The translations under genes and the position numbers were made by a program. Below the pieces are notes generated by a model. That model had not been told where the DNA came from. It did no database searches and worked only from the letters and a program-made list of their open reading frames with translations. This document shows, in pieces, positions 33,155-38,465 of a DNA stretch of 40,651 nt (positions are counted from its first letter, which is position 1; each line of letters begins with the position of its first letter). This stretch comes from a virus: the IMG/VR virus record IMGVR_UViG_3300046533_000621, positions 1-40,651 of that record; one strand, written 5' to 3'.

Positions 33155-33373
33155 GTGAGCCGCCGTCCTCCCCCGCTGCACGAGCGCATCAAGGAGCGCG
33201 TTACGGCGGCGGGCTTTACGCAGGGCGACCTGGCCGAGCGACTCGGCTGGCACGAGATGAAGGTCTGGCGCGTCTTGAACGGGCGCACTGCGCTGTCTGC
33301 TGACGACGTCGAGATCTTCGCGCGCCTCCTGCGCGTTCCCGTCGGCGATCTCTACGACGCCAAGGCGAGCTGA
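33155..33373 (+). CDS. Cro-like XRE-family regulator
   Basis: A 72-residue protein with a complete helix-turn-helix: A-G-F-T-Q-G-D-L-A-E-R-L-G-W (about 19-32), recognition helix H-E-M-K-V-W-R-V-L-N-G-R (about 33-44), then LSADDVEIFARLLRVPVGDLY, the classic end of XRE/Cro domains. It is the first gene of the rightward unit, as cro is in lambda, and probably competes with the repressor. It starts at GTG 33155; AAGG lies too close to act as a normal ribosome site. Confidence 0.83.
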   Translation: MSRRPPPLHERIKERVTAAGFTQGDLAERLGWHEMKVWRVLNGRTALSADDVEIFARLLRVPVGDLYDAKAS

Positions 33374-34781: not shown

Positions 34782-35207
34782 ATGCGCAGTCCAATTGAGA
34801 TCCGGTTAACGGACGCGATCGTCGATGCGCTGGAGCAGCGCGGTATTGACGAGCTGTTCGACGAGTACCTTCAGTTTCCGGTTGAGTCGTATCGCATCGA
34901 CATCATGCTCGAGGGTACGTACGGCCGCCTCGCCGTCGAGTGCGACGGCTTCGACTTCCACGATCGCACGAAGCAGCAAGCCGCATACGACCGGTCGCGC
35001 GATCGGCGGCTGTTGATGCTCGGCATCCCGACGATCCGTTTCACCGGCAGCGAGATCGTCCACGACGATGCGCGGTGCGCGGCCGAGGTCATCGATCTGT
35101 TCATCGAACTCGAGGAGCGCGCACGCCTGCTCTTCGAGGCGCTCAGGGCGAGATGCGATCGACAGTACGACGCCGACCCGTCGGCGTTTCGTATGGGGAA
35201 GATCTAA
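34782..35207 (+). CDS. DUF559/Vsr-like PD-(D/E)xK endonuclease
   Basis: A 141-residue protein with a restriction-endonuclease-like core: Y-R-I-D-I-M-L (D40), L-A-V-E-C-D-G (E53, D55), then K-Q-Q-A-A-Y-D-R-S-R-D-R-R-L-L-M-L-G-I-P-T-I-R-F-T-G-S-E-I. This order is that of DUF559 and very-short-patch-repair-like nucleases. It sits directly after the previous stop and shares a base with the replication initiator's ATG (TAATG). A role in recombination, host DNA degradation or replication is possible. Confidence 0.78.
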   Translation: MRSPIEIRLTDAIVDALEQRGIDELFDEYLQFPVESYRIDIMLEGTYGRLAVECDGFDFHDRTKQQAAYDRSRDRRLLMLGIPTIRFTGSEIVHDDARCAAEVIDLFIELEERARLLFEALRARCDRQYDADPSAFRMGKI

Positions 35208-36133
35208 TGGCGGGCGCGTGGTGCAAGGTGGCCTCGAACCTCGACAGCCATCCCAAGATCCGCAAAGCGGGCCGGCTGGGTCGCGAGGTGTTCCTGTTCG
35301 CGCTCCGACTGAACGCGGATCCGGCCAATCCGGTTCCTGGGATCGTGCCAGCCGTGATGCTCGAGGACTGGTACGTCGCGGAGCAACTGATGATGACCGT
35401 AACGGAGAGTAACGAAGGTTTGTTACGCGTTTTAAGCGCCGGTCTTCTGAAGAAACGGGGGGCGTCATTCGAGATCGTTGGGTGGGACGACGATTGGGGG
35501 CGCCGACCCAAGAGTAACGCCGAACGACAGGCCGATTTCCGCACAAAGCAGCGGAACCGCACCGCTACTGGCGAGCACAAGACTCCGTCAGTAACGGAGC
35601 CATCGTTACGGCGTAACGCGAATAACGAAAGTAACGGATCAGAGGAGATCAGAGGAGATCAGATAAGAAGAGAGGAGAAGAGAGAAGAGGGAGAGTGTGA
35701 GAGGGAGGTCGCGGCTGACGCCGCTCGCGTTTCGGCTCCGGACTCTTCGCTGCTCGCTGAGTTCAAGCGCAAGGTGGACGCGATGCCTGCGCAGCGGCCG
35801 AAGAAGCCGAAGCCGCCGGCCGCATCGCAGGCAGAGCTCGCCAGCGTTCGCATCGTGCTCGAGAAGCTCGGCTCTCGAAACGGGGTGGCATATTCGGGTT
35901 CTGTCGAGCACGTGAAGCTCATCGTCGACCGGCTTCGCGACGGCTACACCGAGCTCGACTTGCGCAAGGTGGTCGCTCACAAGGCCGACGAGTGGGAGAG
36001 CGACGACAAGATGCGTCGACACCTGTGTCCCGAAACGCTTTTCGGGCCGAGGACGATCCAGCGATACATCGACGCAGCGCGTACGGCGTACAAGCACGTC
36101 GAAACAGCCGAGCCGCAGCAGGTGAGCCAGTGA
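35207..36133 (+). CDS. Replication initiator with C-terminal phage replisome domain
   Basis: A 308-residue protein. The N-terminal ~95 residues (MAGAWCKVASNLDSHPKI, LFALRLNADPANPVPG) resemble a winged-helix phage replisome organiser. Residues about 100-205 are charged and low in complexity. The C-terminal ~75 residues hold V-E-H-V-K-L-I-V-D-R-L, K-A-D-E-W and H-L-C-P-E-T-L-F-G (272-280), a pattern of the phage conserved C-terminal (DnaD-like/Phg_2220_C) domain that recruits host helicase factors. The middle encodes an iteron cluster, probably the origin. It lies between nuclease and MTase genes in the early unit. Confidence 0.8.
   Translation: MAGAWCKVASNLDSHPKIRKAGRLGREVFLFALRLNADPANPVPGIVPAVMLEDWYVAEQLMMTVTESNEGLLRVLSAGLLKKRGASFEIVGWDDDWGRRPKSNAERQADFRTKQRNRTATGEHKTPSVTEPSLRRNANNESNGSEEIRGDQIRREEKREEGECEREVAADAARVSAPDSSLLAEFKRKVDAMPAQRPKKPKPPAASQAELASVRIVLEKLGSRNGVAYSGSVEHVKLIVDRLRDGYTELDLRKVVAHKADEWESDDKMRRHLCPETLFGPRTIQRYIDAARTAYKHVETAEPQQVSQ
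35399..35710. other. Probable replication origin: GTAACG iterons and purine-rich tract
   Basis: GTAACG occurs at 35399, 35409, 35514, 35591, 35613 and 35631 on the plus strand and at 35604-35609 on the minus strand, with variants at 35622 (ATAACG) and 35422-35426 (GTAAC, minus). Five sites fall within 35591-35636. Immediately after is a ~70-base AG-rich tract (35640-35710), beginning with a doubled AGAGGAGATCAG, which could be the first region to unwind. Iterons plus an asymmetric tract inside the initiator gene are the lambda-type arrangement. Confidence 0.68.
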
Positions 36134-37558: not shown

Positions 37559-37772
37559 GTTTCAAGTCTAGCGATCCGGCGTTGCGGGCTTTCGACGAAG
37601 CCTACGACCGCATCATCGGCACGTCGCTGGACGAAGCCTGCGCCCAACGCGACGCCCTCCACGACGCGCTGAGCTCGCTTGTGGCGCATGTTCGGCGCAT
37701 CGGCGGGTACGCGACGCAGGACGAGCAGAACGTGGTGTGGCGAGCTATGGCGGTGCTGGAGGAGACGAGACG

Positions 37773-37776
<4 letters not shown>
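37555..37776 (+). CDS. Small helical protein, 73 aa
   Basis: GTG 37555 overlaps the methyltransferase stop. The sequence is mostly one or two helices (ALRAFDEAYDRIIG, LDEACAQRDALHDALSSLVAHVRRIG, NVVWRAMAVLEET). No motif is recognised. Coupled to the repeat-containing gene downstream. Confidence 0.65.

Positions 37777-38461
<685 letters not shown>

Positions 38462-38465
<4 letters not shown>

Follow-up and report, generated by a model that had tools for sequence, protein, structure and literature searches.

We describe a probable replication origin that a temperate tailed phage carries inside the gene for its initiator; short iterons there lead into a candidate strand-opening array of AGANN pentamers, and one strand of the array may be recognised by its 5-nt beat. 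Origin activity and protein binding are what we infer from the DNA analysed here, a 40,651-base virus record (hereafter the window, meaning the whole of this stretch) that has a GC content of ~65% and carries terminase, portal and integrase genes. That an iteron origin lies within the initiator gene had been proposed in a first, sequence-only reading of the window, and the proposal is supported by four lines of evidence: the family to which the initiator belongs, a layout kept in eight orthologues, the position of the record's least stable 60-bp stretch, and the presence of related arrays beside iterons elsewhere. The GC skew of the window was uninformative, as it is dominated by gene orientation.

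The initiator gene and its protein

The replication initiator is a protein of 308 aa encoded on the plus strand at 35207–36133, and its ATG start overlaps the stop of the upstream gene. The assignment is based on the C-terminus, which is Phg_2220_C (PF09524; E 2e-12, 47.3 bits against a curated cut-off of 27), on a match to a PHROG replication initiation protein (E 2e-10) and on the orthologue L091. When PHROG matches up to E 0.1 were considered, the O-like family phrog_345 was absent. The small gene directly upstream (34782–35207) matches MTES_1575 / DUF559 endonuclease-like families.

The N-terminal part of the protein (aa 1–114, 35207–35548, plus strand) is predicted to form a winged-helix-like domain (AlphaFold model, pLDDT 83) and is kept in the eight orthologues. 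Its fold matches are winged-helix proteins, including plasmid Rep and the DnaD N-domain, and since the best Z is below 8, only the general winged-helix fold is claimed for this model. The domain is likely to be the part that binds the iterons. The Phg_2220_C domain (aa 217–288, 35855–36070, plus strand) is modelled as a helical bundle (pLDDT 87). Comparison of this model with PDB structures gave no clear match, with no DnaD or DnaT chain among the matches listed, and a profile search of the PDB with the same domain gave no credible match either; a weak DnaD-like PHROG match was obtained only for the orthologue L091. The closest relatives of the C-terminal domain, L010 and L011 (61% and 51% identical in the matched stretch), have ACCAGC/GCTGGT repeats at the linker position and, after these, a GCTCCT tract with a 6-nt period, so that both iteron and tract differ from those of the window.

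GTAACG iterons in two groups

Seven exact GTAACG copies, six on the plus strand and one on the minus strand, lie within 35399–35636, as compared with 18 in the whole window, which confirms the earlier count of at least seven sites on both strands. Two further copies have one mismatch, namely TGTTAC at 35421 and ATAACG at 35622. The first group, block A (35399–35426), consists of GTAACG at 35399(+) and 35409(+) and the one-mismatch TGTTAC at 35421–35426(−), and corresponds to codons 65–74, which fall within a predicted helix (65–77, AlphaFold) inside the N-domain. A single GTAACG (35514–35519, plus strand) separates it from block B (35591–35636), which occupies codons 129–144 in the linker and contains GTAACG at 35591(+), 35604(−), 35613(+) and 35631(+) together with the one-mismatch ATAACG at 35622(+). 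The sequence-only reading had placed the sites in the linker, which is correct for the second group, whereas the first lies in the predicted winged-helix domain; its figure of five sites within 46 bp is reached only if ATAACG is counted, the exact sites being four.

Seven copies in a 250-bp stretch have a probability of ~1e-12 (Poisson estimate), and the cluster is the strongest hexamer cluster of the window once a GC-rich gene of low complexity at 37.9 kb is set aside. The ORF at 37737–38465 has a long Ala/Asp low-complexity stretch (DADADAAAAYADA), and nowhere else in the window is a hexamer repeated so densely. The GTAACG sites occur in differing codon phases and on both strands. Seven copies were never reached in 2000 synonymous-codon shuffles of the initiator gene or in 2000 dinucleotide shuffles of it, and thus repeated protein motifs do not explain the cluster. 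We also considered classical plasmid iterons, i.e. regularly spaced same-strand repeats of ~20 bp, and rejected this description for the window, where the cores are 6 bp, lie on both strands and are irregularly spaced.

A phased pentamer array in the least stable DNA of the record

Directly beyond block B, ten perfect AGANN pentamers follow each other with a 5-bp period at 35641–35690 on the plus strand (AGAGG, AGATC, AGAGG, AGATC, AGATA, AGAAG, AGAGG, AGAAG, AGAGA and AGAGG), forming a candidate region for strand opening or single-strand recognition. The window contains no other AGANN array, and in dinucleotide shuffles of the window 0 matches to five AGANN units are expected. By nearest-neighbour energy, the least stable 60-bp stretch of the record is 35620–35679, that is, the last iterons and the AGANN array. 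A 70-base purine tract with a doubled 12-mer had been noted at this place. The tract is indeed present, albeit with 61 purines in 70 positions and thus not pure, while the supposed 12-mer is a 10-bp tandem repeat, two units of the longer array with its 5-bp period; we therefore prefer to call the tract a pentamer array.

AGANN has NNTCT as its complement, and one strand only therefore presents 5'-TnnT-3' every five nucleotides. This strand of the array has 14–16 TnnT per 64 nt, where the average is 2.4, and is the record-wide peak, while the other strand has 0. In the mechanism that we propose, the N-terminal winged-helix domain would bind the GTAACG iterons in their two groups, one within the codons of the DNA-binding domain itself and one within the linker codons, and the bound initiator would then open the adjacent array. 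Least certain is the third step, in which one opened strand may be recognised through the 5-nt beat, with TnnT as the motif as for DnaD. The C-terminal module (Phg_2220_C, or a DnaT-type domain in the orthologue L094) or a host loader would subsequently bring the helicase. The window array suggests such a DnaD-type reading, and the link to DnaD is drawn only by analogy because the model of the window C-domain has no DnaD or DnaT structure among its listed matches.

The layout is kept among N-domain orthologues

The relative L091 is 48% identical to the window protein overall, has GAAACG in place of GTAACG, and again carries ten AGANN units. Searches with the N-domain added L093–L098 and L105, and the orthologue set comprises eight distinct members, the window included; none was found in a search of viral contigs for relatives with a single protein or in an N-domain search of genome contigs. 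In all eight, iterons are followed by 4–10 AGANN units, and the gap between the last iteron core and the array is 2–5 nt. The core is GTAACG in L098, as in the window, and GTGAC in L093, L094, L095, L097 and L105. In five of the seven relatives (L094, L095, L097, L098 and L105) the first iteron group lies within N-domain codons. The C-terminal domains, on the other hand, vary among the orthologues, being Phg_2220_C in some, DnaT-type in L094, and without a Pfam match in L093 and L095. That N-domain, iterons and array stay together despite such C-terminal swaps points to the N-domain as the probable iteron binder.

These comparisons also bear on a different function of the GTAACG sites, namely as operators through which the early operon would be autoregulated, with no origin involved. 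Sites in a coding region could act as roadblocks, and a gene for an HTH protein is located nearby at 33155. However, wherever the initiator N-domain is found the sites come with it, each time ahead of an unstable array, and a gene of similar layout, rep of phage Tuc2009, is annotated as containing an origin, so we consider operators quite improbable.

Selection acts on the DNA of the linker

In 13 initiator genes, the arginine codons within the arrays are 34 AGA and 3 AGG with no CGN (AGA 34/37), whereas AGA encodes only 12 of 282 arginines outside the arrays of the same genes (Fisher p 4e-32). Such a bias indicates that the DNA itself is under selection. Moreover, synonymous shuffles kept the array in 0 of 2000 cases for the ten units of the window and in at most 13 of 2000 for the shortest arrays. 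The earlier suggestion that the protein linker is shaped by the function of the DNA is supported by codon choice and shuffles alike, and codon choice also favours the view that the REEKR-type linker, with its low complexity, arises mainly as a by-product of the DNA element. The reverse, that the protein needs a charged REEKR linker and the DNA pattern merely follows from it, would agree with the charged low-complexity linkers of many initiators, but it accounts neither for the preference for AGA in arrays over the rest of the genes, nor for the near-complete loss of arrays upon synonymous shuffling, nor for the iteron and array units that also occur in non-coding DNA (below). Selection at the protein level is thus a highly improbable cause.

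Pentamer arrays beside iterons in other contigs

A blind scan of viral contigs for (AGANN)6AGA, made without protein information, returned at least 80 loci; the numbers from these scans are lower bounds and cannot be converted to frequencies. Among the AGANN loci listed, 58 have the array within an ORF of 110 aa or longer, mostly near residues 100–200. Most of the arrays fall in genes for replication initiators: the PHROG matches of these ORFs are to replication initiation and primosomal proteins as well as to DnaD-like loaders and O-like initiators, and eight of the ten ORFs that were examined singly matched such families. The 55 blind AGANN ORFs form 10 to 21 clusters, and part of the conservation thus reflects shared ancestry. 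Significant short repeats were detected in the 100-nt stretch immediately 5' of the array in 60% of cases, compared with 13% just 3' of it and 8–9% in distant controls, and these iterons vary by locus (e.g. GTTGAACCT, GCAACCAA, AAATGTCTCC and AAGCAAGTGC). Arrays with iterons directly 5' were also found outside any long ORF (L124, L138, L159, L171, L162, L194 and, in Veillonella, L308), and for those loci a purely protein-based cause is excluded.

Seven units of ACANN, intended as a negative control, behaved like AGANN, with upstream repeats in 54% as compared with 3–16% in controls. The ACANN ORFs match replication initiation PHROGs, with the arrays at the same place in other initiators, and GTAACG iterons again lie beside ACANN arrays at L396, L399, L415 and L430. 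Since ACANN had been planned as a negative control, the generalisation to A(G/C)ANN is post hoc. AGANN and ACANN share an A at the first and third positions, and thus have a complement with TnnT every five nucleotides. The CACNN control (seven units) gave repeats in 21% upstream and 21% downstream and few initiators, the initiator-like exceptions being two, L497 and L536. Several contigs (L504, L528, L529, L498 and similar) have long degenerate CACNN arrays of up to 26 units, in several blocks per contig; the ORFs with CACNN arrays read HTTPRH-type repeats, and among those scanned ten match phrog_4652.

When initiator genes were instead chosen by homology (52 genes, mostly Phg_2220_C), a significant 5-nt period was seen in only 9, and periods of 6 and 8 were seen as well. 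Judged from these sequences, the pentamer is a frequent class, one among several, and no rule for initiators. The other periods are also what might be expected if the origin were indeed embedded in the gene and opened at a merely passive tract of low stability, the 5-nt period having arisen by slippage of short GA repeats and the pentamers remaining unread. Plain (AGAGA)n runs in several relatives fit this as well, as does the unphased AT-rich region that lambda uses beside its iterons (PMC7466680). Slippage, however, does not predict that AGA is fixed while the two N positions vary over 6–10 units, as they do in the window, L091, L093, L094 and L098, and a passive tract does not account for ACANN arrays at the same place in other initiators. 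We therefore regard a passive tract as unlikely and lean towards an array that may be read.

In bacterial genomes, AGANN arrays are mostly pure pentamer microsatellites (49 of 80 among the matches listed). A TTGACA-like element (aaaggacTTGACA) repeatedly precedes pure microsatellites of AGAGC, AGACA or AGACC by ~30 nt, for instance at L257:1622, L266:6496, L272:2113, L278:7682, L282:668, L292:5326, L299:3 and L312:3170, as if the microsatellites were part of phase-variable promoters. A non-coding (AGAAGAGATA)n array is found at L252:1783 in Candidatus Uzinura diaspidicola, whose complete genome measures 263 kb.

We are evenly divided on a broader proposition, namely that a phased A(G/C)ANN array, adjoining locus-specific iterons on their 3' side whether or not it lies in a gene, is a widespread phage origin element that is read as single-stranded TnnT for helicase loading and can serve as a signature for locating origins. 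The principle of an embedded origin is already known; as far as the open literature shows, the new part is the phased pentamer module beside iterons, in coding as well as non-coding DNA. No description of a pentamer array for phage origins was found in the open-access literature, which is weak evidence. To our knowledge, most phage origins are unmapped. If the proposition is true, a simple DNA signature would predict the position and orientation of an origin independently of protein homology and so open origins to testing in a large part of viral sequence space, phage origins would be tied to the idea of short single-strand codes at bacterial origins (DnaA-trio, DRE), and the recurrent REEKRREEK and LDKTRLDK linkers of phage initiators would be explained as DNA elements and not as protein features.

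Comparison with known origins

The lambda ori occupies the central part of gene O and consists of iterons and an AT-rich, unphased tract (PMC7466680). The window is similar in that multiple iterons within the coding sequence of an initiator lead directly into an easily melted region. The lambda iterons, however, are annotated 18-bp sites, whereas those of the window are 6 bp long, occur on both strands and form two groups, of which one lies in the N-domain, and the window protein has no sequence match to the O-like PHROG of the lambda O family. No AGANN array was found in lambda O or in TP901-1 rep. For the lactococcal phage Tuc2009, the record annotates an origin within rep, where, as in the window, iterons are followed by a tract with a 5-nt period, here of AGGNN type. 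Tuc2009 rep belongs to another initiator family, being annotated as a DnaD-like helicase loader, and differs in its iteron and in having G at the third pentamer position. A cultured phage that shares the layout is Salmonella phage epsilon15, with GCGGAC iterons ahead of five AGANN pentamers inside its replication initiation gene (epsilon15_p23), albeit with an N-domain of another sequence family and another iteron than in the window, and its annotation lists no origin function. In phiPSA1, too, GCGGAC iterons lead into five AGANN units.

Among bacterial origins, DnaD of B. subtilis recognises pairs of TnnT in single-stranded oriC (PMC10201434). This DnaD Recognition Element resembles the window in its strand-specific repetition of TnnT (14 on one strand of the window array and 0 on the other in 64 nt) and in lying, as is proposed for the window array, in a strand-opening region beside initiator sites. 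It differs in being chromosomal, DnaA-dependent and located opposite DnaA-trios, whereas the window has a strict 5-nt period and a non-DnaA initiator. The DnaA-trio and the (G/A)ATCA motif of RctB at V. cholerae ori2 (PMC10797057) are likewise short repeats beside double-strand sites that the initiator reads as a single strand; the RctB motif differs from AGANN, and identity with the DnaA-trio was rejected, as this is a 3-nt repeat and the period of the window is 5 nt. Lastly, gp49 of Listeria phage A118 (L238:9609-10541) has GGGACAACGAAAG-type repeats followed by a AAGAATTA tract with an 8-nt period, which is perhaps another class of origin tract.
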